NCBI GenBank assembly: GCA_029210585.1
Contig: JARGFP010000002.1
Span: 62,001-126,000, forward strand
DNA: 64,000 bases
Reading direction: 5' to 3'
Source: Bacteroidales bacterium
Lineage (GTDB): Bacteria; Bacteroidota; Bacteroidia; Bacteroidales; GCA-2748055
A program made the position numbers and the translations under genes. Shown in pieces: positions 1,230 to 19,268 of this stretch (the first letter of the stretch is position 1; each line of letters starts with the position of its first letter). Below the pieces are notes generated by a model. It had not been told where the DNA came from. It saw nothing but the letters and a program-made list of their open reading frames with translations, and did not search any database.

Positions 1230-1334
1230 AATATGTGGAGCTACAGGTTCCCGGAAAAATAAACAAAACAGATTTCATTTTTTGGTTTCCGTTTGTTGAC
1301 CTGGAACTTGTTCGGATGAAGATTGAGAAGATGT

Positions 1335-2624
1335 ATGAAAGTCCTGAAAACAGTTGCGTTTAAGACATTGGGGTGCCGGCTCAACCAGTTTGAGACCGAC
1401 GCACTTGTGACCGGTTTCCATAATGCCGGTTACCACGTGGTGGAAGGAGATGAAAAGGCAGATGTCACTGTGATCAATACCTGTACCGTTACCAACCAGA
1501 GCGACCAGAAATCGAGGCACACCATCAACCATGCCGCGGCAAAGAACCGGGACGGGCTGGTGGTGGTGACCGGCTGCATGGCCGATAACTACAAGGAGAA
1601 ACTGGAGGGACAGGAGCAGATCACTTACGTGGTCGACAACGACCGCAAGAGCCAGATCGTGGAACTGGTCAACGGTCACTTTACCGGGGAGATCATTCAC
1701 CCTGACAAGATGATGGGGGACCGGTTCGGGTTCGACACGGTTCAGAAGAGTCTGCATACCCGTACCTCGGTGAAGATCCAGGATGGGTGTGACAATTTCT
1801 GTACGTTCTGCATCATCCCGTCGGTCCGCGGAAGGGCCGTCAGCCGCCCGGTGAAGGACGTACTGGATAATGTCAGAAGGGTTGTCGATAACGGCTTTAA
1901 GGAGGTGGTCATCACCGGGGTCAATATTGGCCGGTACGACGATGAGGGCCTCACCTTTGAAAACGTGGTGGAGCAGGTGCTGGAACTGCCGGGAGATTTC
2001 AGGGTACGCATCTCCTCGCTGGAGCCCGATGGGTTCAGTGAGGACTTCCATCAATTGTTCAGTCACCCGAAACTGGCACCGCATCTGCACCTTTGCCTGC
2101 AAAGCGGATCCGGGGAGATCCTGCTGAAGATGCGCAGGATGTATTCTGCCAACTATTTCATGGAAACGGTGGAACGCTTCAGAAAAGCGATTCCCGATTT
2201 TAATTTCACCACGGATGTCATTGTAGGGTTCCCGGGGGAGACCGACGACGATTTCCAGAAGACTGTCGATTTTATCAGGGAGGCAAAATTCTCCCATGTA
2301 CATACCTTCCGGTTCTCGCGGAGGACAGGAACACGGGCCGACCGGATGAAGGAACAGGTTTCGGGGAAGGTGATGGCCGAAAGAAGCGAGGTGATCCGGA
2401 AGATTTCAGAAGAGAACCGGCACGCATATATGCACTCCATGCAAGGGAAAGAACAGCGCGTACTGATTGAAAAAGTGGCCGGTGGAATGGCCAGTGGGTA
2501 TGGCGAACATTACATGCCCGTTGCGTTTGCTGTTGAGGACCCCACCACCAACAGGTTTGAACAGGTCCGTCTGACCGGGACCACACCCTCCGCCGACCCG
2601 GTGATGCAGGGCACGTTGATTTAA
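1335..2624 (+). CDS. mtaB: tRNA t6A37 methylthiotransferase MtaB
   Basis: Radical-SAM methylthiotransferase that converts N6-threonylcarbamoyladenosine-37 to its 2-methylthio form in tRNAs reading ANN codons. It shows the three-part family layout: an N-terminal UPF0004 domain with cysteines in TLGCRLNQFE, NTCTVTN and VTGCMAD, the radical-SAM CxxxCxxC in DGCDNFCTFC near residue 155, and a C-terminal TRAM-like segment. Length (429 aa) is normal. ATG 1335 is preferred over an in-frame TTG at 1323 because MKVLKTVAFKTLGC matches the usual short N-terminus. Its TAA shares a TTAA tetramer (2621-2624) with the stop of the convergent ricT-like gene. Confidence 0.93.
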   Translation: MKVLKTVAFKTLGCRLNQFETDALVTGFHNAGYHVVEGDEKADVTVINTCTVTNQSDQKSRHTINHAAAKNRDGLVVVTGCMADNYKEKLEGQEQITYVVDNDRKSQIVELVNGHFTGEIIHPDKMMGDRFGFDTVQKSLHTRTSVKIQDGCDNFCTFCIIPSVRGRAVSRPVKDVLDNVRRVVDNGFKEVVITGVNIGRYDDEGLTFENVVEQVLELPGDFRVRISSLEPDGFSEDFHQLFSHPKLAPHLHLCLQSGSGEILLKMRRMYSANYFMETVERFRKAIPDFNFTTDVIVGFPGETDDDFQKTVDFIREAKFSHVHTFRFSRRTGTRADRMKEQVSGKVMAERSEVIRKISEENRHAYMHSMQGKEQRVLIEKVAGGMASGYGEHYMPVAFAVEDPTTNRFEQVRLTGTTPSADPVMQGTLI

Positions 2625-3250
2625 AAAGGAGCATTCTGCCGGGCACCGACCTGGCGCAGCTCTATTTTCATACTGAATTCACTCATCAGGAGCTTCAGCA
2701 ATTCCCTGAAATCGACACGGCCATCGGCGGTGTAATAAACGGTGATCTTTTTTCCGTCGCCCCTGAATTCAACATCACTGATGCTCATTTGCAGTCCGAG
2801 GGAACCGGCAAGTTCGCGGCATATGATCAAGGCTGAGCGGTCATTTTTCCTGGCTTCGAGCCATTTTTCGATGTCGGTGTCATTGGCGATGCGGTACACG
2901 TTTTTCAGTGATGCCCGCTTTCTGTCTGAAGCATTACCCTCGTATCGTTTCCTGGCCAACTCGCCTGTAAGAGAAACTGTTCCTACATCATGACCTCCTT
3001 CCACATCAACGACGATGCGATCGTCCTTCTGCAACCGCAGCATCCTGCTGTTCCTGTAAAATTCCTTCCTGTTGTTCTTGAACCTGACTTCAATGACCTC
3101 TTCCCCGACCCTGAGGCCGGACAACCCTTTCATCCAGTCGTGGGTTGCCAGCATTCCCTTCGAAGTATCCAACTGCGCCAGGAACACCTGTTCCTGTGCA
3201 GGTGTCTGGCTACTCTTCCCACAACTGCATCCTCCGCTGCAACATGACAT
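2621..3250 (-). CDS. PSP1-domain protein (RicT-like), C-terminally truncated
   Basis: PSP1-domain proteins of the RicT/YaaT type form an Fe-S containing complex that influences RNA processing in Bacillus; in Bacteroidota they are usually over 400 residues by my recollection. This copy has 209. The N-terminus has a cysteine cluster (MSCCSGGCSCGK) and the PSP1 core runs to FSMKIELRQVGARQ, but the protein then ends within four residues (NAPF) instead of continuing into the glycine- and cysteine-rich C-terminal region (GRIGGIGxCGRxLCC type). The stop overlaps the mtaB stop by four bases in convergent orientation. The usual neighbours (holB, gldH) are missing. Deletion, rearrangement or misassembly at about 2625-2640 are all possible. 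Confidence 0.8.
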   Translation of the reverse strand: MSCCSGGCSCGKSSQTPAQEQVFLAQLDTSKGMLATHDWMKGLSGLRVGEEVIEVRFKNNRKEFYRNSRMLRLQKDDRIVVDVEGGHDVGTVSLTGELARKRYEGNASDRKRASLKNVYRIANDTDIEKWLEARKNDRSALIICRELAGSLGLQMSISDVEFRGDGKKITVYYTADGRVDFRELLKLLMSEFSMKIELRQVGARQNAPF

Positions 3251-3329
3251 ACTTATGCTTATTTAGATTAAGTAAACGTAAATGCAAAAGTGCAGAAAAG
3301 TGATAAGAAATCAAAACAAAGCAGCTGTT

Positions 3330-4127
3330 TTATGCTTTCTCGTGATGGTTTTGGCTTCGCATCAGTTTAATGAGTTGACGGTAAATAAACTTATTGAACC
3401 TGACGCTGTTTCTTACCGTTGGTTCGTTCCGCCGGATATTTTTTTGTTCAGGCCGGGGGATCCGTTCCAGTGCTTCAGAATGGGTTTCCAGGGCGGGGAG
3501 AAAGAGCTCGTTCAGGGCGTAATCATACAGTTCAGCATCCCTGGAATTGTATTTTTTGAGCAATTTCAGGGAAGCGTCGTCGCCCAGCAGCCGGTTTTTG
3601 ATGTCGTTGTTCCTGGCAGTGATCAGTCTCCTGTAGTCCAGGTTGAGCGGCTTCCCGAGCTGGAGTTGCATAAACCTGACCGAATCATCGAAATATTCGG
3701 TAATCCCGGTAAAGGAATATGCCTCCATGAGCAGCCGTTTTGCCTTTTCAACATCTGTGGAACCGGCGATAATCTTTACCGAGAGGTCCTGGTTTTCCGC
3801 GTGGCTGATCCATTCTTCGAAGGAAATGGAGAGGTTGCTCCGCAGCATATTGTCCTGGTAATGAGATGCACATCTTGTAACAGGTTCCCGCAGTATAGTG
3901 ATCAGCTGGTCGTCCGGCCCTGCAAAGTTTGAGAGCGGATCCAAAAAATTATGTCCTGTAATCGCCTGCGGTTCGCGGAAAATCTTTTTTGCAAAGCGAA
4001 GGTCCTCATCCGTGTAGGGTGTCCTTTTTGTTTTCAGGGCGTCAATATGTTTCACACCATAGTTGTTGCGGAGGATATACTTCAGGGATGTCCCGGCAGT
4101 TTTCGGTATGTGTGAGAAAACGATCAT
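3330..4127 (-). CDS. Sulfotransferase family 2-like protein
   Basis: A PAPS-dependent sulfotransferase fold is suggested by the N-terminal 5'-phosphosulfate-binding motif FSHIPKTAGTSL at residues 4-15 and the 3'-phosphate-binding motif TILREPVTRCASHY around residue 95. This is the arrangement of the carbohydrate sulfotransferase (Sulfotransfer_2) clan; the acceptor is unknown. I start at ATG 4127 rather than the longer frame from 4184 because a TATCTTTG -7 element sits just upstream and would leave the longer start untranscribed. There are 79 bp to the truncated PSP1 gene on the same strand. No PAPS-synthesis genes are in the window. The 3' end is rich in Arg/Lys and Asn. Confidence 0.75.
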   Translation of the reverse strand: MIVFSHIPKTAGTSLKYILRNNYGVKHIDALKTKRTPYTDEDLRFAKKIFREPQAITGHNFLDPLSNFAGPDDQLITILREPVTRCASHYQDNMLRSNLSISFEEWISHAENQDLSVKIIAGSTDVEKAKRLLMEAYSFTGITEYFDDSVRFMQLQLGKPLNLDYRRLITARNNDIKNRLLGDDASLKLLKKYNSRDAELYDYALNELFLPALETHSEALERIPRPEQKNIRRNEPTVRNSVRFNKFIYRQLIKLMRSQNHHEKA

Positions 4128-4131
4128 AGTG

Positions 4132-4139
4132 CTGCAAAG
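4132..4139 (-). promoter_or_regulatory. -7 promoter element TATCTTTG for the sulfotransferase gene
   Basis: TATCTTTG on the minus strand fits the Bacteroidota -7 consensus TAnnTTTG and lies only a few bases upstream of the chosen ATG, so the mRNA would have almost no leader. No clear -33 TTTG was found. Confidence 0.5.
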
Positions 4140-4389
4140 ATAGCAATTACCATTACAGGGCTGTTTCCTCATGTCGAAAACCACGGATTGTTCATTTATT
4201 TTGGAACAACAGGTTGATTACACCTGGCTTAACACCATGGGGCGCTGTTTTTATGTCGATACAACACAGATTATAGCTTCGCAGCAACCTGCAGCTTTTT
4301 CCATGATGTCCTGGCAGCAAGGAGTGCAACAGGCTGCTGTCACAAGGATGCCATCAATTAATTTATTTAGATTCTAAAAAGTATTTGGC

Positions 4390-4397
4390 TAACTTTG
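4390..4397 (+). promoter_or_regulatory. -7 promoter element TAACTTTG for hppA
   Basis: Matches TAnnTTTG and lies ~97 bp upstream of the pyrophosphatase ATG. A matching -33 TTTG at the usual 19-21 bp spacing is not evident. Confidence 0.5.
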
Positions 4398-4493
4398 CAC
4401 CTTTAAAAAAAGGCAATTCGTTGTTTATTAGCCGTTTAATGTATTTTGTTGATGAACAAGGAATTAATACTTTTCTAACTTAACCTTTATATT

Positions 4494-6800
4494 ATGAATG
4501 ACATTTATGGATTGTTCTGGATTGTGCCTTTAGCAGCTACTTTGGCACTTGTTTTTGCTTATCTTTTCTTCAGGACGATGATGAAAAGTTCTGAGGGTAC
4601 GCCTAGGATGAAGGAAATTGCACAGTATGTAAGAGATGGTGCAATGGCCTACATAAGGAGTCAGTACAGGGTAGTGGCACTGGTATTTTTGGTCATGGTG
4701 ATCCTCCTTGGGGTGATGGCTTACCTGGGTGTACAGAATCCTTTTGTTCCGATGGCCTTTCTGACGGGCGGTTTCTTTTCCGGACTGTGTGGATTTCTTG
4801 GAATGAAAACAGCCACCTTTGCATCAGCCCGGACAGCCCAGGGAGCGTCGGAATCGTTGAATAAGGGCTTAAAGGTTGCATTCAGAAGCGGTGCAGTAAT
4901 GGGACTGGTTGTGGTAGGTTTTGCATTGCTTGATATTGCCGGATGGTTCTATCTGCTGGACAAACTGATCTTCACTCCCGACAACATGGAAAATGGTGCC
5001 CGTTTTCTTGGACTTACATTTGTACATGCAGGAACTTCAGAGCACCAGAAGCTGGTTGAGATCACTGTTACAATGCTTACTTTTGGTATGGGTGCATCCA
5101 CCCAGGCACTGTTTGCACGTGTGGGAGGTGGTATTTATACCAAGGCTGCAGATGTCGGTGCCGACCTGGTAGGTAAAGTCGAAGCGGGTATTCCCGAGGA
5201 TGATCCACGCAACCCGGCTACCATTGCAGACAATGTTGGTGACAACGTCGGTGATGTTGCAGGTATGGGGGCCGATCTGTATGAATCATATGCAGGATCG
5301 ATTCTTGCTACCGCTGCACTGGGTGCTGCTGTGCCACTTGTTGGAAGTTACTCAGGGATGACGCAGCAAACTACCGTGCTGGCACCCATGATGGTTGCCG
5401 CTGTCGGTATTATTCTCTCCATCGTAGGTATCTTCATGGTAAGAACCAAGGAGACTGCCACACAGAAAAACCTGTTGAATGCACTGTTGCTCGGTACAGG
5501 AGGCAGTTCATTCTTTATCCTGATTGCCATCGCCGTGATGGCTGCCGTAGGCTGGATCACATGGGGTATTTTTGGTGCTGTTGTTGCCGGATTGGTGGCC
5601 GGGGTTATCATCGGACAGGCAACAGAGTATTTCACCTCTGATGAATACAAACCCACCAAAGGAATTGCAAAACAAACACAGGGGGGAGCTGCAACAACCA
5701 TCATTGACGGTATTGCCGTTGGAATGACCTCCACATGGATCCCGGTTGTTACGATCGTTGCAGGGATTATCGCTGCATATGGATTTGCCGGCGGATTTAC
5801 AAATTTTGCACATGGCGTTTATGGAATTGGTTTTGCTGCTGTGGGTATGCTTTCCACGCTGGGAATCACCCTTGCCACGGATGCGTTCGGACCGATTGCT
5901 GACAATGCAGGAGGTAATGCTGAAATGTCAGAACTGCCTCCGGAGGTACGTGAGCGGACAGATGCACTGGATATGCTCGGAAATACTACTGCAGCTACAG
6001 GCAAGGGATTTGCAATCGGGTCAGCTGCACTTACTGCGATGGCCCTGCTGGCAGCATACATGGAAGAGATCAGGCTCTGGCTTGGCAAGATGGCCGACAA
6101 GGCGACTGATGGTGTATTTGCCGTTGGTGATACCCTGTTTTTCCGTGGTGATTTGAACCCGGTAGTTGAAGCCGGACAGGTTGCTGTACAGCTTGAAAGT
6201 GCACAAATCAACGATTTCGTTCGTGCCTATGACCTGTCTCTTTTCAACCCGATGTTACTTGGAGGTATCTTTGTTGGTTCGATGATGGCCTTCCTGTTCA
6301 GTGCGCTGACCATGAAAGCAGTGGGACGTGCAGCCGGAGCCATGGTTGACGAGGTACGCAGGCAGTTCAAGGAGATGCCCGGCATTATGAAAGGGGAGCA
6401 GGTACCCGAATATGCAAAATGTGTGGCGATTTCCACCAAAGGAGCACAGCGCGAGATGATCCTTCCCTCCTTGATCGCCATTATTGTGCCGATCGCTATC
6501 GGTGTGCTGCTTGGCGTTGCCGGAGTTGTCGGATTGCTCGTTGGCGGACTTACAACAGGTTTTACACTCGCAGTGTTTATGAACAACGCAGGTGGTGCAT
6601 GGGACAATGCCAAGAAATTCATTGAAAAAGGCAACTATGGCGGGAAAGGAAGTGACTCCCACAAATCCGCTGTTGTTGGTGACACGATTGGTGATCCTTT
6701 CAAGGATACCTCAGGTCCTTCCTTGAACATCCTCATCAAGCTGATGACCATGATCTCTGTTGTAATGGCAGGTCTGACCGTGGCATTCAGTATTTTCTAA
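4494..6800 (+). CDS. hppA: Membrane-bound ion-pumping pyrophosphatase
   Basis: Integral membrane pyrophosphatase that couples PPi hydrolysis to cation export across the inner membrane. At 768 residues with about 16 hydrophobic segments it has full family length. The substrate site is plain: [20 protein letters not shown] followed by [19 protein letters not shown] around residues 215-265, and a second acidic cluster [20 protein letters not shown] near 470. The [10 protein letters not shown] segment has alanine where K+-independent enzymes have lysine, so K+ dependence is inferred. Bacteroidota members are mostly Na+ or dual Na+/H+ pumps; which ion is used here cannot be settled by eye. It is monocistronic, ending in a strong terminator. 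Confidence 0.96.
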
Positions 6801-6825: not shown

Positions 6826-6855
6826 AGCCGGTTCAGCAATGAACCGGCTTTTTTT
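6826..6855 (+). terminator. Rho-independent terminator after hppA
   Basis: A perfect 10-bp stem (AGCCGGTTCA 6826-6835 with TGAACCGGCT 6840-6849) closes a 4-base loop and is followed by a run of T. It reaches into the stop of the convergent lpxH. Confidence 0.92.
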
Positions 6856-7600
6856 AAAAAGTTTCCAGGCGGAATTCCTCGCCGTCGAATACGCCGTAGC
6901 TGTAACTGGAGATCCAGTCGCCAAGGCATACGGCCCTTTTCCCCGGGGCAATTTCTACATCATAGGGAATGTGGCGGTGTCCGAACACAAAGATGTCGAT
7001 GCCGGGTTCTGTTTCCAGTTTTTCCCTGGCGAAGATGATTTGTTCCTCGTGTTCTTCTTTATAGGGTTCAACCATCTCTTTGCCATACCTGCTCTTCTTC
7101 GACCACCATTGGGCAAAAGCTGTTGTGCCGTTCGGATGGAGCCGGGCGTAGCACCACTGCAGGAATTTGTTCCTGAAGATTGATTTAAGGAACAGGTATC
7201 CGCGGTCCTTGCCGGTCAGCCCGTCGCCATGTGAAAGATAAAAGGTTTTGGTTCCCATGCTGATCACCATCGGGTCATGGTGAATTTCAGCGCCGATCTC
7301 TTCGGGGAAGTAGTCGAACAGCCATACATCGTGGTTTCCTGAAAAGATGTGGATTTTTACTCCCTGGTCGGCCAGTTCCGCAAGTTTGCCTATGAAACGG
7401 ACAAATCCGCGCGGGACCACTTTCCTGTATTCAAACCAGTAGTCGAAGACATCCCCGAGCAGCCACAGTTCTTTTGCCTCCGGACCGATTTCGGTCAGCC
7501 AGGCCACCAGGTGCTTTTCGCGCTCCCGGCTTTCTCCTGCAGGGTACATCCCCAGGTGCATATCGGAGGCAAAGTATATGTTGTTTCGTTTACCGGTCAT
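6854..7600 (-). CDS. lpxH: UDP-2,3-diacylglucosamine diphosphatase LpxH
   Basis: Calcineurin-like metallophosphoesterase that cleaves UDP-2,3-diacylglucosamine to lipid X in lipid A synthesis, at the inner face of the cytoplasmic membrane. All metal-binding blocks of the family are present in order: FASDMHLG (near 10), LGDVFDYWFEY (near 47), FSGNHD (near 85), LSHGDG (near 122) and FGHRH (near 208). Length (248 aa) is right for LpxH. Downstream it converges on hppA and shares the terminator region; upstream (53 bp) are the TlpA-like lipoprotein genes on the same strand, so it may be co-transcribed with them. Confidence 0.9.
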   Translation of the reverse strand: MTGKRNNIYFASDMHLGMYPAGESREREKHLVAWLTEIGPEAKELWLLGDVFDYWFEYRKVVPRGFVRFIGKLAELADQGVKIHIFSGNHDVWLFDYFPEEIGAEIHHDPMVISMGTKTFYLSHGDGLTGKDRGYLFLKSIFRNKFLQWCYARLHPNGTTAFAQWWSKKSRYGKEMVEPYKEEHEEQIIFAREKLETEPGIDIFVFGHRHIPYDVEIAPGKRAVCLGDWISSYSYGVFDGEEFRLETF

Positions 7601-7653: not shown

Positions 7654-8811
7654 TTACAGCAGGTTATCGAGCCAGGTGGCAAGCACATTGCTTTCGATGT
7701 TCTTTGCAACGATGTTCCCCTCTCTGTCGATCAGGTAATTGGCAGGGATCGACTGCACGTTGTAAACAGTTGCAGCGTAGGAGTTGGGGTAGCTTAATTC
7801 CGAGACATTGATCCATGGAAATTCTTCAAAATCCACCGCTCCCCGCCATGTATTCCTGTCATTTTCCATGGCAACGGAATAGATTTCGAAGCCCTTGTCG
7901 TGGTATTCATTGTAAAGCCCGATAAGCCGTCGGCTGGCTGTCCTGCTCTCGTTGTTCCAGGAGGCCCAGAAATTCAGCAGGATCACTTTGCCATCCAGCG
8001 CACGGAGGCTTTGCGGATCGCCATTGACATCTTCTATCACCAGGTCGATCAACCCGGTCTCCACCGTGCTGTTTTGCGTTAACTTATTGATCGTTATTAT
8101 ATTGTTGTATTCGGTGATGCGTTGTTCCACATCATTCACCAGGGATTTCGCCAGCGTGGAACCCGGGTATTTCACCCGCACAGAATCGGAAACGATCTTG
8201 TAATATTGCAGGTCTTTCACGTCATTGAACAGGTACACATCCGGCGCTACTCGTTGATAGAGGGCATACACACTGGAGAGAGAACTGATATTCTCAATAA
8301 TGAATCGGACGTTGGCGCGTTTCTGGTCGTTGAAGATCTCCCGGTAAGTGGTGATCAGGGTTTCAGCTTCGGGACTTTCAAGGTTCTCCATCTCATTGAG
8401 TGCATCAAGGATTGAATCCAGCCTGGTTTTGGTCTGTTCCACCTCCTGTACCAGGGCCCTGATCTTCACTGATTCTTCAGAACCGGCGACCACATATCCT
8501 TTCCTGAAAGAGGATTGCGGGATGTCCAGGCGGATCTCATCACCCGGAAATGCCAGCAGGTTGATATACTGGTCCTGTTCGTTTTTCACCAGGATCAATT
8601 CAGGATGGTCCAGGTTGAAACCAAATTTGAAATCACCTTTTTTGTTCAGCTTCACCGAGTCAATAAATTGTTTTTCAGCGATGTTCAGCATCTCAAATTG
8701 CAGGTATCCGCCCGCACCCGCTGGGTAGGAACCCCGGATGATGATGTTGTCATCTGATCCACAGCTAAACAGTAATGAACTGATGACCAGTCCGATATAA
8801 ATTTTTCTCAT
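7654..8811 (-). CDS. TlpA-like lipoprotein with DUF4369-type N-domain, CxxC lost
   Basis: Predicted periplasm-facing lipoprotein (lipobox LLFSC, Cys17) with a ~95-residue beta-rich N-domain of the DUF4369 kind, a helical linker rich in Glu/Arg, and a C-terminal thioredoxin fold of the TlpA/ResA type. The thioredoxin strand KVILLNFWASW is followed by NNESR where active members read CGPCR, so both redox cysteines are gone; the cis-proline loop (IPANYLID) is kept. It therefore cannot act as a simple dithiol reductase and is more likely a binding or chaperone-like paralogue. It follows its paralogue 8817-9998 by 5 bp, and lpxH lies 53 bp downstream. Confidence 0.82.
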   Translation of the reverse strand: MRKIYIGLVISSLLFSCGSDDNIIIRGSYPAGAGGYLQFEMLNIAEKQFIDSVKLNKKGDFKFGFNLDHPELILVKNEQDQYINLLAFPGDEIRLDIPQSSFRKGYVVAGSEESVKIRALVQEVEQTKTRLDSILDALNEMENLESPEAETLITTYREIFNDQKRANVRFIIENISSLSSVYALYQRVAPDVYLFNDVKDLQYYKIVSDSVRVKYPGSTLAKSLVNDVEQRITEYNNIITINKLTQNSTVETGLIDLVIEDVNGDPQSLRALDGKVILLNFWASWNNESRTASRRLIGLYNEYHDKGFEIYSVAMENDRNTWRGAVDFEEFPWINVSELSYPNSYAATVYNVQSIPANYLIDREGNIVAKNIESNVLATWLDNLL

Positions 8812-8816
8812 ATGTA

Positions 8817-9998
8817 TTATTGTAAGTGCTTTTCCACAGAACGGATTAAATTTTCTCCAAAGTTATCCTTTTCAACGATGGTACCGGCGGGATTGATCAG
8901 GAAATTGGCTGGAATCCTCTCGATCCGGTAAAGATTGGCCACTGCCGACTCCCATCGTTCCAGTTCACTGGCATGGTACCAGCCAGGAATCTGTTCTTTG
9001 ACTGCCGCATGCCATTCCTGCTTATCATCATCGATCGATACGCTGATAATGACCAAGTCCTGTTCACCGAATTTCCTGGCACATTCGGCCAGGAACCTGT
9101 TTTCTTCCAGGGAGGGTTTGCTCCAGGAAGCCCAGAAATGCAGTAATACAAATTTTCCCCTGAACGTTGAAAGGGTGAGCGGATGGTCATCGATTGACTG
9201 AATCACAAAATCAGGTGCTTTGTCACCTGGCTGAAGCTGCACCTCCTGTTGCTGGTTTCGCAGCTGTTCCATTGCAGCTGCCAACTCACTGTGAAGGGCC
9301 CTTACTGCCTCGTTACCAGGATAACTGGCATAGAGTACTGAATCGGCGAACCTGTAAATTTCAAGGTCGGTAAGCGGGTGGAACACCGGCAGTCCCGGAC
9401 CGAACTGGTTGTACAATGCGATCAGTATGGCTGGTGAGTCGGGGTGGTTCAGGATAAATTCCCTTGAATAGTTGTGAAAGGCACCAGAGACGGAGTCAAA
9501 CCGCGCATTCAGCTCTTGTTTTTTTTCGGCATAGCCGGGGCCGGGTGGGATATTCCTCGATGCAAGCGCAATCTTTTCCAGTTGTTCAAGGGCTTCCTTA
9601 TGGACGATTGCCAGCTGTCTCAGGAGATCGGAATACCCAGAGCCTTCGACCGTGTATGGATACAAATTTTCTGCTGTACCTGTGAGATGCAGGTGGTCGC
9701 CGGGACTGGCAATGAGCGTGATATACCCCTGGTCGGTATACTTCAGCGCATAATAATTCATCCCGGGTTCACTGAAAGTGATAGCGAACTGTCCGCGGTC
9801 ATCGCAGCGGACTGAATCGATGGGAACAAAGGCAGTGGTACCCATAAGGTCCAGGGTCACAAGCTGGTCTTCCCCGTTTTCCAACGTGCCTGTGATGGTG
9901 ATCTGACCGGTTTCGGCAGATGATGGTTCACTTTTTTGCTGCCGGGAACAACCGGCAACAAAAGTGACCAAAACAACAATAAGCATCCTCAGCAACAT
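8817..9998 (-). CDS. TlpA-like lipoprotein, paralogue of the next gene, CxxC lost
   Basis: Lipoprotein (lipobox VAGC, Cys17) with the same build as its neighbour: beta-rich DUF4369-like N-domain (about 30-120), helical middle, and a C-terminal thioredoxin domain from about 255. The core reads KFVLLHFWASWSKPSLEENR, so the CxxC of TlpA is replaced by SKPS; IPANFLIN retains the cis-proline loop. The two genes are clearly related in layout but diverged along most of their length, so the duplication is old and the cysteine loss is not a recent accident. It is the first gene of the minus-strand unit, preceded by a -7 box at 10027-10034. Confidence 0.82.
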   Translation of the reverse strand: MLLRMLIVVLVTFVAGCSRQQKSEPSSAETGQITITGTLENGEDQLVTLDLMGTTAFVPIDSVRCDDRGQFAITFSEPGMNYYALKYTDQGYITLIASPGDHLHLTGTAENLYPYTVEGSGYSDLLRQLAIVHKEALEQLEKIALASRNIPPGPGYAEKKQELNARFDSVSGAFHNYSREFILNHPDSPAILIALYNQFGPGLPVFHPLTDLEIYRFADSVLYASYPGNEAVRALHSELAAAMEQLRNQQQEVQLQPGDKAPDFVIQSIDDHPLTLSTFRGKFVLLHFWASWSKPSLEENRFLAECARKFGEQDLVIISVSIDDDKQEWHAAVKEQIPGWYHASELERWESAVANLYRIERIPANFLINPAGTIVEKDNFGENLIRSVEKHLQ

Positions 9999-10176: not shown

Positions 10177-12120
10177 ATGGCATTCCTCAAATTTGATAAG
10201 GCAGAGCTGGTCAACCTTGAATACTCCCTTTCCCGGGAAGCATTAAGATCCAATCGTGCAGGTTCTTTCGCTTCCACCACAATTGCCGGGTGTAATACGC
10301 GCAAATACCATGGTCTGCTCATCTGCCCGGTCGAATATCTCGACGGGGAAAATCATGTGCTGCTTTCCTCACTGGATATTTCCGTTATTCAGCATGAAAA
10401 ATCGTTTAACCTTGGGATACATAAGTACGAAGGAGATTTGTACGTACCCAGGGGACATAAATATATCCGGGATTTTGATGCGGAAAAGGGATCCCGCACG
10501 ACCTTCCGTGTGGGTGGGGTTGTGCTGACCCGCGAGACGATGCTGGTTCAGAAAAAGGAACAGATGCTGGTGAAGATCACCCTTGATGAAGCCCATTCGG
10601 ATACCAGGGTGCAATTCAGACCTTTCCTCGCATTCAGGAACATTCATAAACTCAGCAAGGCCAATCTTTACCTGAACCGCCAGTATGCACAGGTGCCCAA
10701 CGGTATCAAACTGAGGATGTATGACGGGTATCCTGAACTGCATATGCAGCTGTCCGGGAAAGCAGAGTTTGTTCCGGTACCGGACTGGTACTACAACGTG
10801 GAATACCTGGAGGAACAGCGCAGGGGGTATGAATTCAAGGAGGACCTGTATGTTCCGGGATATTTTGAGGTGCCGATGAAAAAGGGCGAAACGATCATCT
10901 TTTCTGCATCCACTACCGAGGAAAAACCTGCCGGTCTGAAGCGTCGCTTCAAGGCAGAAGAGGACTTGCGGACGCCCCTCGACAGTTTCAGGAACTGCCT
11001 GGTGAATTCGGCCCAGCAATATTTCGTAAGAAAGAACAGTGTTACAGAAATACTTTCCGGGTTTCCCTGGCTGGATGTCAGAAGCCGTTATACTTTCCTG
11101 TCGCTGCCGGGCCTGACTTTGGCGCAGGGAAATGATACCACTGCTGCACTGAATGTGATCGATACCATGACAGGCAGGCTGAAGGACGGCCTCTTTCCGA
11201 ATACCTCGCGCCAGCATCACGATTTCTATAATTCCATTGATGCCCCGCTTTGGTTCATATGGACCTTGCAGCAGTTGGAGAAGCAGATCGGGATTGATCC
11301 GTGGAAAATGTACCGCAAGGAGATCATGCAAATCATGGAGGCTTACAGGAACGGTACGCATTTAGGCATCTCCATGTCGGAGAACGGCCTGGTTGCCGGA
11401 GGTGATGAAGGAATTCCGCTCACGTGGATGGATGCCATGGCAGAGGGGCAGGCCATTACCCTGCGTCCCGGTTATACAGTGGAAGTCAACGCGTTGTGGT
11501 ACAATGCGGTTTGCCAGGTCCTGCAATGGGCAGGTGAGAAAAGCAGTGTGGCCAGGCAATGGAAAGACCTTCCTGAAAAGATCAGGAATGCTTATGTTGA
11601 TCATTTCTGGATTGATGATAAAGGGTACCTGGCAGATTATGTCCACAATGGATTCAGGGACGATTCCGTACGGCCGAACCAGGTAATTGCCGCATCGATG
11701 GATCATGCCCCTGTCACAAAAGAGATGAAAAAGAGCCTGCTGGATGTGGTCGAAAGCGAATTGCTTACCCAAAAGGGGCTGCGCACACTTTCTCCGAAGA
11801 ATATCGCCTACAGGGGGCTTTACACGGGTGACCAGGAAAAACGTGACAGGGCGGTGCACCAGGGTTCGGTATGGCCATGGTTGCTGGAGCATTTTGTGAA
11901 GGGGTACCTGGAGGTCCACAAGCGCTCCGGAATGATCCTTGCGCGAAAGATATATGACGGGTTCGAGGAGGACATGACCAAGTACGGTATTGGAACGATC
12001 CCCGAGCTGTACGACGGAAACCCGCCGCATGATCCGCGGGGTGCCATCAGTTTTGCTCCGAGCGTTGCCTCATTGCTCCGGATTGGTGAGATGATCGATA
12101 TGTTTAATAAGCAAAAATAA
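10177..12120 (+). CDS. Glycogen debranching enzyme (amylo-alpha-1,6-glucosidase, GH133 type)
   Basis: Cytoplasmic debranching enzyme that removes alpha-1,6-linked side chains from glycogen. At 647 residues it shows an N-terminal beta-sandwich domain (NLEYSLSREALRSNRAGSFAS near 10, followed by NTRKYHGLL) and a C-terminal (alpha/alpha)6 barrel from about 270 with SRQHHDFYNSIDAPLWF, GGDEGIPLTWMDA and VEVNALWYNAV. It opens a run with a GT4 glycosyltransferase (14 bp on) and a GH57 enzyme (16 bp further). The same three-gene order occurs in Bacteroides, as I recall it, and is consistent with glycogen turnover. Confidence 0.92.
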   Translation: MAFLKFDKAELVNLEYSLSREALRSNRAGSFASTTIAGCNTRKYHGLLICPVEYLDGENHVLLSSLDISVIQHEKSFNLGIHKYEGDLYVPRGHKYIRDFDAEKGSRTTFRVGGVVLTRETMLVQKKEQMLVKITLDEAHSDTRVQFRPFLAFRNIHKLSKANLYLNRQYAQVPNGIKLRMYDGYPELHMQLSGKAEFVPVPDWYYNVEYLEEQRRGYEFKEDLYVPGYFEVPMKKGETIIFSASTTEEKPAGLKRRFKAEEDLRTPLDSFRNCLVNSAQQYFVRKNSVTEILSGFPWLDVRSRYTFLSLPGLTLAQGNDTTAALNVIDTMTGRLKDGLFPNTSRQHHDFYNSIDAPLWFIWTLQQLEKQIGIDPWKMYRKEIMQIMEAYRNGTHLGISMSENGLVAGGDEGIPLTWMDAMAEGQAITLRPGYTVEVNALWYNAVCQVLQWAGEKSSVARQWKDLPEKIRNAYVDHFWIDDKGYLADYVHNGFRDDSVRPNQVIAASMDHAPVTKEMKKSLLDVVESELLTQKGLRTLSPKNIAYRGLYTGDQEKRDRAVHQGSVWPWLLEHFVKGYLEVHKRSGMILARKIYDGFEEDMTKYGIGTIPELYDGNPPHDPRGAISFAPSVASLLRIGEMIDMFNKQK

Positions 12121-12134
12121 AATTTCACAGGTTC

Positions 12135-13424
12135 ATGAAGGTACTAATGTTCGGGTGGGAATTTCCGCCACATATCTCAGGGGGGTTGGGAACTGCAAGT
12201 TTCGGACTTACCCGCGGACTTTCCACAATTCCCGACCTGGATGTCATCTTTGTTGTGCCCAGGGCCTATGGAGATGAGGATCAGAGCAAGATGCGGCTGA
12301 TCGGAGCGGGAGATATCACCCTGGATACAAAGCACATGAGGTTTTCGAAATTGCTGGGCAGCATTTCCTACATCGAGGTCAGTTCCAACCTGGTACCGTA
12401 CCATTCCCCTGAAGAATATGAATCGCTGGTGAACAAAGCGGAGAACAAGAAAAAGAAACTGATCCACACCACGATGGGAGGAAAGCTGGTATTTTCGGGG
12501 GGATACGGTAAGAACCTGTACGAAGAGATCGCCAATTATGCCCTTGTTGCCCAACAGATCGCAGATGAAAATGAACACGACGTGATCCATGCCCATGACT
12601 GGCTGACTTATCCGGCAGGGATGGCAGCGAAGGGTATTTCCGGTAAACCGTTGGTGATCCATGTACACGCCACGGATTTCGACCGGTCCGGGGGTAAGGT
12701 GAATCCCGGTGTTTTCGAAATCGAAAAGAAGGGCATGGAAGCTGCGGACAAGGTCATTGCCGTGAGCAATCTTACGCGCAACACCATCATTGAAAAGTAC
12801 GGGATCGCACCTGAGAAAGTAACCACTGTCTATAACGCGGTTGAACCGCTCGGGGACCAGGAAAAGATTGCCTTGCGGCGCGGGATCGACGACAAGGTAG
12901 TGACTTTCCTGGGGCGTGTCACCCTGCAGAAAGGCCCTGAATATTTTGTACAGGCCGCAGAAAAGGTGTTGCGCAAAATGGAAAATGTGCGTTTCGTGAT
13001 GGCCGGAAGTGGTGAACTGCTGGAGCGGATGATTAGCTGGGCAGCTTCACTGGGCATCGCCGATAAGTTCCATTTTACCGGGTTTCTGAAGGGTGACGAT
13101 GTGTTCAGGATGTTCTCCATCAGTGATGTGTACGTAATGCCTTCGGTATCCGAACCTTTTGGAATATCTCCGCTTGAAGCCATGCAATCCAATGTGCCTA
13201 CGATTATCTCAAACCAGTCGGGCGTTGCCGAGATATTGAAATATGCCATCAAAACGGATTTCTGGGATGTGGATGCCATGGCAGATGCGATCTACGGTTT
13301 ATTGAACTATCCGTCCCTTTCCGAGGTCTTTAAGAAATATGGGAAAGAGGAGGTGGACAACATGAAATGGGAAAATTCCGCTAAGAAAGTTTTTTCGCTA
13401 TACAAGGATGCAGTTTTAACGTAA
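12135..13424 (+). CDS. GT4-family glycosyltransferase in the glycogen locus
   Basis: A 429-residue GT-B retaining glycosyltransferase. The N-domain starts with MKVLMFGWEFPPHISGGLGT, whose glycine loop resembles the KxGGL motif of glycogen/starch synthases, then HAHDWLTYPAGM near 155 and VIHVHATDFDRSG. The C-domain holds FLGRVTLQKGPEYFVQAAE and the nucleotide-sugar motif SEPFGISPLEAMQSNVPTI near 340. By position it is probably the glucan-elongating enzyme, but the donor (ADP- or UDP-glucose) is unproven and no glgC is in the window. It is co-transcribed with the debranching enzyme. Confidence 0.85.
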   Translation: MKVLMFGWEFPPHISGGLGTASFGLTRGLSTIPDLDVIFVVPRAYGDEDQSKMRLIGAGDITLDTKHMRFSKLLGSISYIEVSSNLVPYHSPEEYESLVNKAENKKKKLIHTTMGGKLVFSGGYGKNLYEEIANYALVAQQIADENEHDVIHAHDWLTYPAGMAAKGISGKPLVIHVHATDFDRSGGKVNPGVFEIEKKGMEAADKVIAVSNLTRNTIIEKYGIAPEKVTTVYNAVEPLGDQEKIALRRGIDDKVVTFLGRVTLQKGPEYFVQAAEKVLRKMENVRFVMAGSGELLERMISWAASLGIADKFHFTGFLKGDDVFRMFSISDVYVMPSVSEPFGISPLEAMQSNVPTIISNQSGVAEILKYAIKTDFWDVDAMADAIYGLLNYPSLSEVFKKYGKEEVDNMKWENSAKKVFSLYKDAVLT

Positions 13425-13440
13425 CAATGAATTACCAGTA

Positions 13441-14931
13441 ATGAGAACAATCTGCTTATATTTCCAGGTTCATCAGCCTTTCAGGTTCAGGACCTATCGT
13501 TTTTTCGACATTGGAAATGACCATTATTATTACGATGATTACACCAATGAGAGTATCCTGCGTAAAGTGGCGGAAAAAAGTTACCTCCCGGCCAACCGGC
13601 TGCTCCTGGAAATGATCAGCCGGCACAAAGGGAAATTCAAGATTGCATTCTCTGTTTCGGGCATCGCCATTGAACAGTTCAAACTGTATGCCCCGGATGT
13701 GCTCGACAGTTTCAGGGCCCTTGCTGAAACAGGCCAGGTGGAATTCCTGGCAGAAACCTATGCCCACTCACTGGCTTCCATGAAAGACAGTGATGAGTTT
13801 ACTAAGCAGGTGATGGATCACAAAGCATTGGTAAAGGAACATTTCGGGCTGGAGCCCAATGTGTTCAGAAATACAGAGCTGATCTATTCCGATGAAATCG
13901 GTGCAGCAGTGTATAAAATGGGTTTCAGGACCATGCTTACAGAAGGTGCCAAGCACGTGCTTGGATGGAAAAGTCCAAACTACCTCTATTGCAATGCCAT
14001 CGAGCCGCGCCTCAAGGTATTGCTGAAAAATTTCAAGCTGAGCGACGATATCGCCTTCCGCTTTTCCAATAAAAGCTGGTCGGATTATCCCCTTACCGCT
14101 GAGAAATTTGCAGACTGGCTGAAAGCGCTGCCGGCCGCAGAGGAGACCGTGAACCTGTTCATGGATTATGAAACCTTTGGAGAACACCAGTGGGCAGAGA
14201 CAGGCATCTTTGAATTTCTGAAAGCACTGCCTGAAGCAGTCTTTAAGAAAACAAAGTATACATTCAGCACACCTTCCGAGGTGGCGAAGAACCTGCAGGT
14301 GGTTTCGGCGGTGCATGTCCCGAATCCAATTTCCTGGGCGGATGAGGAACGCGACCTTTCCGCCTGGCTCGGAAACGAGATGCAGAAAGAAGCTTTCAAC
14401 AAATTGTATGAACTGAAAGACCGGGTATATGAAAGCAACGACAGGGAGCTACTGCTGGATTTCAAGTATCTCCAGGTGAGCGACCATTTTTATTATATGT
14501 CCACGAAGTTTTTCTCAGATGGCGAGGTCCATTCCTATTTCAATCCATACAGCACTCCTTATGAAGCATTTATCAACTATATGAATGTGCTGAGTGATTT
14601 CAAAATCAGGGTGGATGCTGCCGTACCATCCGGCAAAGACGGGGAAATTTCCAGGCTCAGCAAGATCATCAGGGAAAAGGATGAAACGATTGCCAAATAT
14701 GATAAGGAGATTCAGCGGTTAAAGAAAAGCGCTTCACATGCAAAAGCTACTGCGGGCAGACCCAGGAAAGGACCGGTAAAGACTGCGGCAACCATGACCG
14801 CCACAGCACCTGCAGGAACCAAGGCCAACACTACCACTAAAACAACTTCCAGAACTACTGCCAAACACCCAGCCAAAACTACATCAAAATCCAGCGGGAA
14901 GAAGACCGGTACCGGCAGATCCAAAAAGTGA
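13441..14931 (+). CDS. GH57 alpha-amylase-type enzyme with basic low-complexity tail
   Basis: A GH57 glycoside hydrolase with no signal peptide, so cytoplasmic. Its short N-terminus (FQVHQPFRFR, His11) is the first GH57 block; the likely nucleophile is Glu146 in VFRNTELIYS and the acid/base Asp243 in NLFMDYETFGEHQ. These positions are assigned by family pattern. Residues ~420-437 form a short charged coil, and ~440-496 are a Lys/Thr/Ala-rich tail resembling a histone-H1-like segment, which is not part of the GH57 fold. It is the third gene of the glycogen operon, starting 16 bp after the GT4 gene. The exact role (amylase, glucanotransferase or branching) cannot be told. Confidence 0.88.
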   Translation: MRTICLYFQVHQPFRFRTYRFFDIGNDHYYYDDYTNESILRKVAEKSYLPANRLLLEMISRHKGKFKIAFSVSGIAIEQFKLYAPDVLDSFRALAETGQVEFLAETYAHSLASMKDSDEFTKQVMDHKALVKEHFGLEPNVFRNTELIYSDEIGAAVYKMGFRTMLTEGAKHVLGWKSPNYLYCNAIEPRLKVLLKNFKLSDDIAFRFSNKSWSDYPLTAEKFADWLKALPAAEETVNLFMDYETFGEHQWAETGIFEFLKALPEAVFKKTKYTFSTPSEVAKNLQVVSAVHVPNPISWADEERDLSAWLGNEMQKEAFNKLYELKDRVYESNDRELLLDFKYLQVSDHFYYMSTKFFSDGEVHSYFNPYSTPYEAFINYMNVLSDFKIRVDAAVPSGKDGEISRLSKIIREKDETIAKYDKEIQRLKKSASHAKATAGRPRKGPVKTAATMTATAPAGTKANTTTKTTSRTTAKHPAKTTSKSSGKKTGTGRSKK

Positions 14932-15005
14932 TGCCGGCAGGTCTCGTGTGGGATGAAGAGAGAAATTTATGTAATTATTGTACTTAATTATTTAAGCAAA
15001 CAGAG

Positions 15006-18000
15006 ATGAGTAATACGATCATTGCTCCCTCTTACCTTTTTGAGGTAAGCTGGGAAGTATGTAACAAAATAGGAGGAATTCATACAGTACTTGCCACCAA
15101 GGCAAACACAATCATGGAAAAGATGATGGACCGGTATATCGTCATCGGTCCGGATGTATACAGGGACAGCGGGGCGCATCCTGAATTTGTCGAGGACAGC
15201 GGATTGTACCGTGAGTGGACCCAGCAGGCAGCCAGCGAAGGGCTCACCGTAAGGATCGGCAGGTGGAAAATCGAGGGCGAACCTGTGGCTTTCCTGGTGG
15301 ATTTCACGACGTTCTTTCCCAGGAAAGATGAAATTTTCAAGAAGTTCTGGGAGTTGTACCACGTGGATTCCATCTCCGGTCAATGGGATTATACTGAGCC
15401 GATGATGTTTGGTTATGCCACCGGAAAGCTCATTGAAAGTTTCATCCGGTTCCATGGCCTGAAGAAAAAACGGATCGTTGCCCACTTCCATGAGTGGATG
15501 ACCGGCGCTTCCTTATTGTGCCTGAAGGAATCTCAACCCCAGGTAGGTACAGTCTTTACAACCCATGCCACGGTGATCGGCAGGTCGATGGCGGGCAATC
15601 ACCAGCCGTTATACGGCAGCATGGAAAGCATCAATGCTGAGGAAAAGGCCCGGGAACTCGATGTGGTCGCCAAACAATCGGTGGAAAAGATCACCGCACA
15701 ACAGGCAGATGTCTATACCACCGTTAGTGAGCTTACCGCCAGGGAATGCCAGTATTTTCATGGAAGGAAGGTAGACCTGACAACTCCCAACGGGTTTGAG
15801 GACAGTATGATTCCTTCAACTGGTGAATTTGGAGAAAGGAGGATTAATGCCCGTGAAAAGCTGCTGAAGGTTGCGTCGCTTCTAACGGGAGAACAACTCC
15901 CTGGTGATGCGATGCTGATCGCCACCAGCGGGCGATATGAATTCAGGAACAAGGGAATCGATCTGTATATCGATGCACTGGGCCGCCTCAACGCGGGTCA
16001 GCAACTCAAAAAGCCGTTGGTTGCCTATATCCTGATCCCTGCCAACCATTTCGGCCCCAGGAAGGATTTACTGGAGGCCTTGCAAACAGAAGGAAAGCAA
16101 ACAGAAGGAAAGCAAACAGAAGGGGATCCATACCTTACCCATTACCTGCATTATGCCGACCAGGACCTGATCCTGCAGCGATTGCAGACGAACGGACTGC
16201 TGAACCGGAAGGAGGACCAGGTAAAAGTGGTATTCGTACCTTCCTATCTGAAGGGAAACGACGGAATCTTCAACATGGATTACTATGCGGCGCTGACCGG
16301 GTTTGACCTTACCGTGTTCCCCTCCTATTATGAACCCTGGGGGTACACTCCTATGGAAAGCCTGGCGTTCAGTATTCCCACGATCACCACTTCTCTGACC
16401 GGTTTCGGGAACTGGGCCCTTGAAAAGGCGGCCGGCGCTGCGATGGGCATCACCGTAATTCCAAGGGATGACCAGAATGATGAAGACGTCGTGCAGGCCA
16501 TCAGTGAAGCGGTGACAGTTTTCCAGGCCATGGACCAGGGGGCTTATGAAAAGGCAAGGGCAGAAGCATTTGCGATCAGCCGCACAGCACTTTGGACAAG
16601 CCTGATCACCCATTACTGGAAAGCATATTCACTGGCCCTGGAGGGGTCAGTTGAAGCTGAGGAGGAATATGCAACCAGGGAGCGCGTGGAACAACTTCCG
16701 CCAACCTTCAGGTTCCTTACCGATATTGAACCGGTATGGAGGAGGTTGATCGTCAACCAGCAGATTCCGCAGAAACTTCAGTTCCTCGAGGAGCTGGCCC
16801 GGAATATCTGGTGGTCGTGGAACCGGGAAGCAGTTGATCTCTTCCGGTCTGTGGAGCCCGCTCTCTGGGAAGAGGTTGAGGAGAACCCGATCGTCCTGCT
16901 GGAGCGCATGCCCTACGAAAAACTTAAATCGCTGGAAAAAGACGATACTTTTCTTGAGCAGCTACACCGTGTAAAATCTGTTTACGACGAATACATGCAC
17001 ACCCCCCGGCGCAAGGATGCACCGTCGGTGGCATATTTCAGCATGGAATTCGGACTTCACAATTCCCTGAAGATTTATTCCGGCGGACTTGGTCTGCTGG
17101 CGGGTGATTACCTGAAGGAGGCGAGCGACTATAATTACGATATGGTGGGTGTCGGACTGCTTTACAGATACGGCTATTTCAGGCAGGTGATCACTTCCGG
17201 GGGCGTGCAGGTGGCGCATGAGGATTCCCAGGATTTCAGCCGTATCCCGGTCGTGCCCGTAAAAGATGAAGCCGGCAACTGGAAGATGGTCCAGGTGGTT
17301 TTGCCTGGACGAACACTGAAAGCCAGGATATGGAAAGCACAGGTTGGCAGGGTACCGTTGTACCTTTTGGATGCGGACCTGGAAGAAAATAAGCCGATGG
17401 ACCGGGCTGTCACCCACAGGTTGTATGGAGGGGATCATGAGAACCGGTTCAAGCAGGAGTTGCTGCTGGGCATTGGTGGTGTAAGGGCCTTGCGTGAGCT
17501 GGGGATTCATACCGACCTGTATCACCTGAACGAAGGCCATGCTGCATTTACAGGTTTTGAGCGTCTGCGTGAATATATCGTGGACAACAAAATGACCTAC
17601 CCGGAGGCACGCGAAGTGGTACGCTCCACCAGCCTGTTCACTACTCACACCCCAGTACCGGCCGGACACGACAAGTTTGATGAAAACATGATGCGTACCT
17701 ACCTGAGTCATTACCCTGAACCGCTTACCATCAGATGGAACAGGATGATGAACCTGGGCAGGGAGAACCACAACGACACCAACGAACTTTTCTCCATGAG
17801 CGTGCTGGCTGTCAACCTTTCCCAGGAAGTAAACGGCGTAAGCAAGCTTCACGGACAGGTAAGCAGGGAGATGTTCAGGGTCATGTGGAAAGGGTACATG
17901 GCCGACGAATTGCATATCGGACATGTCACCAACGGGGTACATCTTTCCACGTGGCTCGCCGACAGCTGGAGATCGTTTTACCTGAAGGAATTTGGGCAGG

Positions 18001-19268
18001 ATTTCCTGGAAAGACAGGAGGACAGGGGACTATGGGAAAAGATCAGGCAGGTAAAGGATGAGGATATCTGGAACATTCGCAGTGCCGAAAGGAAGGGCCT
18101 GGTGGAATATATCCGTAAGCGGTTATCTGATGCGTCTGCCAGTTTCCTCGAGGATCCGAGGCTCACCATCGAGGTTGCCGATTCTTTGGATGAAAATGCG
18201 CTGACCATAGGTTTTGCCAGGAGGTTTGCCACATACAAGCGGGCCCACCTGTTGTTTAAGGACCTGGACCGGCTGGCACGGATCGTGAATAACCCCGAAC
18301 AACCCATCCAGTTTATCTTTGCAGGAAAGGCACATCCGAAAGATGAGCCCGGACAGGCGCTGATCAAGAGGATCGTTGAAATTTCCAAAATGCCTGCATT
18401 TATCGGCAAGGTGATCTTCCTTCAGAATTACAATATACAGCTTGCCAAGAGGCTGCTTCATGGCGTGGATATCTGGCTGAACACACCCACCCGTCCGCTG
18501 GAGGCTTCCGGCACCAGCGGGGAGAAGGCGGTGATGAATGGCGGACTGCACTTCAGCGTGCTGGATGGCTGGTGGGCGGAAGGTTACAGGGAGAATGCAG
18601 GGTGGGCGCTTCCCGTTGAGCGCACCTTCGAAAACCAGGAGCAGCAGGATGAACTGGATGCCGAAAGAATCTATTCGCTGTTTGAAAACGAGATTGCACC
18701 GAAGTTTTATAACCGGGACAAGGATGGTGTTCCAACAGGATGGGTAGAAGTAATCAAGAATTCGATTGCCGGCGTGGCACCCGAGTTTACCATGAACCGC
18801 ATGTTGCGCGATTACATCGATCGATTCTACAGCAAGTTGTATGACCGGTCCCGCAGGCTCATGCAAAATGATTACAGGCTGATCCGGGAGATTTCCTATT
18901 TCAAGAAACAGATCATGGACCAGTGGCAGGAGATCAAAGTGCTGAATGTGGACCTGCCGGCTGCCGGTAAGGATGACCTGAAGGTGGGGGAAACCCTCCC
19001 GGGATCGATCATGCTGGATCTCAATGGTATTGCAGTTGAGCATATCGGTGTGGAAATGGTCCTTGCGGAAGTGGCAGATGCCGGCGCTGAAAAAAAGGTG
19101 CTGAAGACCGTTGCGCTGGAATGCACCAGTTACAAGGATGCAGTGGCTGAATATAAAGTCGACGCCCAGCCCGGCAGTTCCGGTCAGTATGATATCGGCT
19201 TCAGGATCTACCCAAAAATGGAAGAGTTGCCGCACCGGATGGACCTTCCGCTGGTAAAGTGGATTTAA
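15006..19268 (+). CDS. Fusion of glycogen-synthase-like domain and alpha-glucan phosphorylase
   Basis: A 1420-residue two-enzyme protein. Residues 1-550 resemble a GT3-type glycogen synthase (YLFEVSWEVCNKIGGIHTV at 11-29, AHFHEWMTGASLL, and a donor-site PSYYEPWGYTPMESLAFSIP near 440). From about 570 to the end it is a GT35 alpha-glucan phosphorylase of the short bacterial/archaeal kind: LARNIWWSWNREA, YFSMEFGLHNSLKIYSGGLG, HLNEGHAAF near 840, and the PLP-lysine motif GTSGEKAVMNGG with Lys near 1174. A ~90-residue beta-rich C-terminal region follows. One protein would thus carry both glucan synthesis and phosphorolysis folds. An in-frame 15-bp repeat (KQTEG units) sits near residue 360. It starts 74 bp after the GH57 gene. 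Confidence 0.9.
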   Translation: MSNTIIAPSYLFEVSWEVCNKIGGIHTVLATKANTIMEKMMDRYIVIGPDVYRDSGAHPEFVEDSGLYREWTQQAASEGLTVRIGRWKIEGEPVAFLVDFTTFFPRKDEIFKKFWELYHVDSISGQWDYTEPMMFGYATGKLIESFIRFHGLKKKRIVAHFHEWMTGASLLCLKESQPQVGTVFTTHATVIGRSMAGNHQPLYGSMESINAEEKARELDVVAKQSVEKITAQQADVYTTVSELTARECQYFHGRKVDLTTPNGFEDSMIPSTGEFGERRINAREKLLKVASLLTGEQLPGDAMLIATSGRYEFRNKGIDLYIDALGRLNAGQQLKKPLVAYILIPANHFGPRKDLLEALQTEGKQTEGKQTEGDPYLTHYLHYADQDLILQRLQTNGLLNRKEDQVKVVFVPSYLKGNDGIFNMDYYAALTGFDLTVFPSYYEPWGYTPMESLAFSIPTITTSLTGFGNWALEKAAGAAMGITVIPRDDQNDEDVVQAISEAVTVFQAMDQGAYEKARAEAFAISRTALWTSLITHYWKAYSLALEGSVEAEEEYATRERVEQLPPTFRFLTDIEPVWRRLIVNQQIPQKLQFLEELARNIWWSWNREAVDLFRSVEPALWEEVEENPIVLLERMPYEKLKSLEKDDTFLEQLHRVKSVYDEYMHTPRRKDAPSVAYFSMEFGLHNSLKIYSGGLGLLAGDYLKEASDYNYDMVGVGLLYRYGYFRQVITSGGVQVAHEDSQDFSRIPVVPVKDEAGNWKMVQVVLPGRTLKARIWKAQVGRVPLYLLDADLEENKPMDRAVTHRLYGGDHENRFKQELLLGIGGVRALRELGIHTDLYHLNEGHAAFTGFERLREYIVDNKMTYPEAREVVRSTSLFTTHTPVPAGHDKFDENMMRTYLSHYPEPLTIRWNRMMNLGRENHNDTNELFSMSVLAVNLSQEVNGVSKLHGQVSREMFRVMWKGYMADELHIGHVTNGVHLSTWLADSWRSFYLKEFGQDFLERQEDRGLWEKIRQVKDEDIWNIRSAERKGLVEYIRKRLSDASASFLEDPRLTIEVADSLDENALTIGFARRFATYKRAHLLFKDLDRLARIVNNPEQPIQFIFAGKAHPKDEPGQALIKRIVEISKMPAFIGKVIFLQNYNIQLAKRLLHGVDIWLNTPTRPLEASGTSGEKAVMNGGLHFSVLDGWWAEGYRENAGWALPVERTFENQEQQDELDAERIYSLFENEIAPKFYNRDKDGVPTGWVEVIKNSIAGVAPEFTMNRMLRDYIDRFYSKLYDRSRRLMQNDYRLIREISYFKKQIMDQWQEIKVLNVDLPAAGKDDLKVGETLPGSIMLDLNGIAVEHIGVEMVLAEVADAGAEKKVLKTVALECTSYKDAVAEYKVDAQPGSSGQYDIGFRIYPKMEELPHRMDLPLVKWI
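16082..16123 (+). repeat. 15-bp in-frame tandem repeat (2.8 copies)
   Basis: Units start at 16082, 16097 and 16112 and are nearly identical; each encodes QTEGK. They lie in a surface-type loop of the synthase-like half, before YLTHYLHYADQDL. Confidence 0.9.

Follow-up and report, generated by a model that had tools for sequence, protein, structure and literature searches.

The window, i.e., the whole analysed stretch of 64,000 nucleotides of a Bacteroidales contig, contains two tandem genes for lipoproteins, here called P2 and P1 (Table 1). The ORF check of the window showed both frames to be intact on the minus strand with 5 bp between them. The two products have the same domain order, consisting of an N-terminal lipobox with cysteine C17 (LLFS-C17 in P1 and FVAG-C17 in P2), a DUF4369 beta domain, a long helical linker and a C-terminal TlpA/ResA-fold domain. 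The Pfam profile Thioredoxin_8 matched both proteins (E-values 4.6e-14 and 7.6e-16), and DUF4369 (PF14289) scored 28.5 for P2 and 24.4 for P1 against a gathering cut-off of 25. With the NCBIfam profile for ResA the pair scored 52.8 and 69.6 bits, below the cut-off of 170. The gene following the pair scored below both NCBIfam equivalog cut-offs for LpxH, the UDP-2,3-diacylglucosamine diphosphatase (99 vs. 134 and 78 vs. 190 bits), and is therefore named LpxH-like only. Within the family of the window, the gene order was a divergent glycogen-debranching gene, P2, P1 and the LpxH-like phosphatase gene.

Table 1. Features of the P2-P1 gene pair and the adjoining gene; positions are those of the window.
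Feature	Position	Strand	Remarks
P2, DUF4369 + TlpA-fold lipoprotein	8817..9998	-	First gene of pair; 393 aa, motif SKPS
P2 DUF4369	9627..9899	-	Residues 34-124
P2 Cys65 codon	9804..9806	-	In DUF4369
P2 SKPS replacing CxxC	9111..9122	-	Residues 293-296
P2 thioredoxin-like domain PF13905	8877..9158	-	Residues 281-374
P2 cis-Pro363 codon	8910..8912	-	Invariant in 30/30 aligned rows
P1, DUF4369 + TlpA-fold lipoprotein	7654..8811	-	Second gene, adjoins LpxH-like gene; 385 aa, motif NNES
P1 DUF4369	8473..8685	-	Residues 43-113; slightly below Pfam cut-off
P1 NNES replacing CxxC	7945..7956	-	Residues 286-289
P1 thioredoxin-like domain PF13905	7711..7992	-	Residues 274-367
P1 cis-Pro356 codon	7744..7746	-	Invariant in 35/35 aligned rows
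LpxH-like calcineurin-type phosphatase	6854..7600	-	Next gene downstream of pair; conserved neighbour

The initial annotation had described both proteins as lacking CxxC while keeping the thioredoxin strand and the cis-proline loop, and this was borne out by the ORFs and by alignments in which the columns of the two motifs line up with the CxxC of relatives. The strand and motif read NFWASW-NNES in P1 and HFWASW-SKPS in P2, and the cis-proline loops of the two proteins read QSIP and ERIP. Because thioredoxin folds in general rely on the cis-proline for their structure, its conservation is no proof of binding. The lipid-anchored C17 is the sole cysteine of mature P1, so that thiol exchange by P1 is impossible, and the only cysteines of P2 outside the motif, beyond the anchor, are C65 and C306. 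A metal site formed by the substituted residues was rejected, as these positions hold a mixture of N, S, D, and T with no conserved His/Cys or metal-ligand set. The mature N-terminus of P1, CGSDD (8749-8763, minus strand), is similar to SDDDD, a lipoprotein export signal of B. fragilis (PMC5080379); since it is missing from most P1 orthologues, surface exposure of P1 is doubtful.

AlphaFold2 models of P1 and P2 built from family alignments had a mean pLDDT of 88 each, and a pTM of only 0.57-0.59, which means that the domains are modelled confidently and their mutual placement is not. The last domain of the P1 model resembled ResA-type structures with TM-scores of about 0.8-0.87 by target length. 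P1 thus has the fold of the ResA/TlpA oxidoreductases (TM-score of about 0.81-0.84 to ResA, target length), and the cis-proline and the membrane anchoring of these enzymes are found in P1 and P2 as well, but the CxxC active site is not. The PDB entry closest to P1 by sequence was 2LRT (E-value 7e-19; profile E-value 4e-44), an uncharacterised thioredoxin-like protein, BVU_1432, from Bacteroides vulgatus, of which the chain comprises the thioredoxin-like domain only, with the motif region DFTVYNNAMS; this C-terminal domain lacks CxxC as in P1. 2LRT itself stands outside our tree and was tied to the P1 clade described below via a Bacteroidales member of that clade (row G049_u2368 from locus L093; motif region DFTAYQANLS), which matched 2LRT with an E-value of 3e-38. 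Two further structures belong to the same domain family, i.e., 3FW2 from B. thetaiotaomicron, which is also CxxC-less (SWNDSISQ), and 3FKF from B. fragilis, in which one motif cysteine is present (CDPQ); both were deposited as thiol-disulfide oxidoreductases despite their motifs. With CxxC-less Bacteroides domains already solved (2LRT, 3FW2), the protein type as such is known. A search of the open-licence PMC literature on CxxC-less TlpA, DUF4369, 2LRT and Bacteroides thioredoxin pseudoenzymes found no relevant paper.

Within the family of the window, 21 genomes showed both copies beside the LpxH-like gene, always in the order P2-P1, and a 22nd showed P1 only owing to a contig break. CxxC was absent from P1 in all 21 (one cysteine was left in two), whereas P2 carried CxxC in four genomes, which belong to genera g3 and g5; of the other P2 copies, two had a single cysteine and 15 had neither. 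Among P2 relatives CxxC was kept in two genera and lost in the other four. Apart from the window genome, P1 was CxxC-less in 20/20 family genomes and P2 was without either cysteine in 14, all with intact frames; this recurrence rules out assembly or sequencing error, or chance, as the cause of the missing motif. A lost reductant pathway was also ruled out as a cause, since a DsbD-type electron donor is still encoded: DsbD_TM was found both in the genome of the window and in most of the family, whether P2 has CxxC or not.

One scan of genome contigs gave only three relatives. A first neighbourhood sample had been chosen with P1 and was therefore biased to P1-like genes, so a second sample was anchored on the LpxH-like gene. 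A TlpA-fold gene was found immediately upstream of the LpxH-like gene in 46 of 110 Bacteroidales genomes outside the family, and 44 of these were scored, the other two matches having no visible motif region. CxxC was present in 10/44 of these LpxH-adjacent copies (9/28 single copies and 1/16 tandem copies). In the tandem arrays, the proximal copy was CxxC-less in 15/16 and the distal copy carried CxxC in 8/16, a contrast with a Fisher p of 0.015 uncorrected for relatedness. The initial annotation had suggested looking for a conserved CxxC-less clade, and one was recovered: in a pruned tree from which the motif columns had been removed, P1 grouped with further proximal copies, a number of single copies and a "DFTAY" group in a clade of 35 rows without any CxxC (support 100/98), which in a larger quick tree comprised 43 rows (SH-aLRT 95). 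This clade covers many Bacteroidales families, and P2 falls outside it. The number of CxxC state changes was at least 14 in the larger tree and nine in the pruned tree; as the tree is unrooted and has many long branches, the direction of change was taken from other orders of the class. Among the best matches from those orders, all 23 loci examined carried CxxC, which makes CxxC the ancestral state, and these relatives scored higher against the P2 profile than against the P1 profile.

The wider family has thus lost CxxC repeatedly, most often in the copy adjoining the LpxH-like gene. The change is not confined to the genome of the window; such confinement would have counted against the initial annotation. 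As P1 is CxxC-less throughout the family and P2 retains CxxC in g3 and g5, the loss in P1 predates the family and the loss in P2 took place within it; the two are separate events, that of P1 being old and common to Bacteroidales families and that of P2 the younger. The two parallel losses proposed initially therefore hold in so far as they are separate and concern diverged paralogues, but they did not happen at one time and are not peculiar to this pair.

Estimates of dN/dS were about 0.11-0.14 for P1 and 0.17-0.20 for CxxC-less P2, obtained from pairs with dS of about 0.7-1.6, most other pairs being dS-saturated and left out. Both genes are thus under purifying selection, and the initial view that neither is decayed agrees with the intact frames and with selection maintained after the loss. 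P2 was more constrained than P1 in a close pair in which P2 still has CxxC (G007/G011) and less constrained than P1 in CxxC-less pairs, which allows for some relaxation of P2. Where the first cysteine would stand, 67 of 77 CxxC-less rows had S, N, D, or T compared to a background of 25%, a bias whose p-value takes no account of relatedness; at the second cysteine position, S was found in 53 of the 77 and C was still present in 13. Within the family, Ser293 was present in 21/21 and Ser296 in 18/21 CxxC-less P2 orthologues. In the models, the active-site helix starts at residue 287 in P1, after N286, and at residue 294 in P2, after S293, so that the first-cysteine position is the residue preceding this helix, its N-cap. 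S, N, D, and T are established helix N-cap residues, and from these preferences we infer that the fold was preserved and the redox chemistry abandoned.

The reading that we favour, and regard as fairly probable, is that P1 and P2 are envelope proteins held by a lipid anchor, descended from CxxC oxidoreductases and now non-redox, with the fold as a putative binding or scaffold module. The ancestor of both would have been a CxxC thiol-disulfide oxidoreductase, P1 would be the older and permanently non-redox form, and P2 a former redox enzyme converted within the family of the window. The cysteine lost where the active-site helix begins has given way to residues able to cap the helix. The fold that remains, with the groove at its cis-proline, would serve non-covalent binding or scaffolding, and what it holds may be a peptide, the sister lipoprotein or another protein of the envelope. 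The binding partner or chaperone role put forward in the initial annotation is a plausible candidate.

A less likely arrangement, to which we give perhaps some credence, is that P1 is the non-catalytic subunit of a hetero-oligomer in which a CxxC-bearing P2 was the enzyme half, later dead in the family of the window. The constant tandem order within the family and the proximal-distal contrast in the arrays outside it are consistent with this, but P1-clade proteins also occur alone beside the LpxH-like gene with no tandem P2 (rows G050_s, G128_s, G135_s, and G097_s). It is rather unlikely that the work is done by DUF4369 and the helical linker, with the thioredoxin-fold domain as a stabilising remnant: the linker of P1 has conserved positions (S177, S180, A183, L184, Q186, and D200) that are also present in CxxC relatives, but a mere remnant would not need the invariant F281, W322, and P356 and the near-invariant N351, V336, and Y350 of the thioredoxin-fold domain.

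For P2, Cys65 leaves a monothiol function as a possible counterpoint to the non-redox reading. Replacement of CxxC by this DUF4369 thiol, through a disulfide-linked dimer or a mixed disulfide with an envelope partner, is nevertheless improbable. The thiol is present in 20/21 CxxC-less family P2 orthologues and in 0/9 CxxC-bearing rows, but this probably reflects one event inherited by a single clade, and about 20% of all columns are equally conserved; moreover, Cys65 cannot pair with P1, which has no cysteine to offer. That the genes are simply decaying, with CxxC gone by relaxed selection and no function left, is very improbable: the losses are repeated (at least 9-14 state changes), but the frames intact across the family, the dN/dS well below 1 and the spread of the P1 clade largely refute it.

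More speculatively, and with a low likelihood in our judgement, the favoured non-redox reading could be extended to an ancient redox-dead lipoprotein, linked to an LpxH-like gene in many Bacteroidales families, that is paired, as the pseudoenzyme, with a CxxC sister as the enzyme, the enzyme half later becoming a second pseudoenzyme in several lineages including that of the window; this would imply that the proteins have a non-redox task of their own in the assembly of the envelope or in lipopolysaccharide biogenesis. The linkage to the LpxH-like gene is widespread, yet over half of the sampled genomes lack it, and it hints at envelope biogenesis, short of proof. Proteins such as P1 and P2 tend to be named thiol-disulfide oxidoreductases by fold alone, as with 3FW2, so the redox capacity of the Bacteroidales envelope is easily overstated. 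Repeated loss of CxxC, biased by position, within a syntenic pair offers natural replicates of the change from enzyme to non-enzyme, and the pair is a defined target for learning the binding partners of these common lipoproteins.

Besides, a block divergent from the pair (10177-19268, plus strand) was found to contain genes for a glycogen-debranching enzyme, a glycosyltransferase, a GH57 protein and a fused synthase-like/alpha-glucan phosphorylase, the first three of which also occur next to the pair in several further families of Bacteroidales. Among the arrays from other genomes, one (L074 from G053; 1316-4921) contained three TlpA-fold genes in tandem, followed by the LpxH-like gene; CxxC was present in each of the three, and in two its sequence context was unusual (NPNCDRC and DSHCQIC). 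In another LpxH-linked tandem array (L139 from G161), the distal gene (5327-6481) was highly divergent, with the motif region EFPSPDFTLS and a branch length of 3.95.
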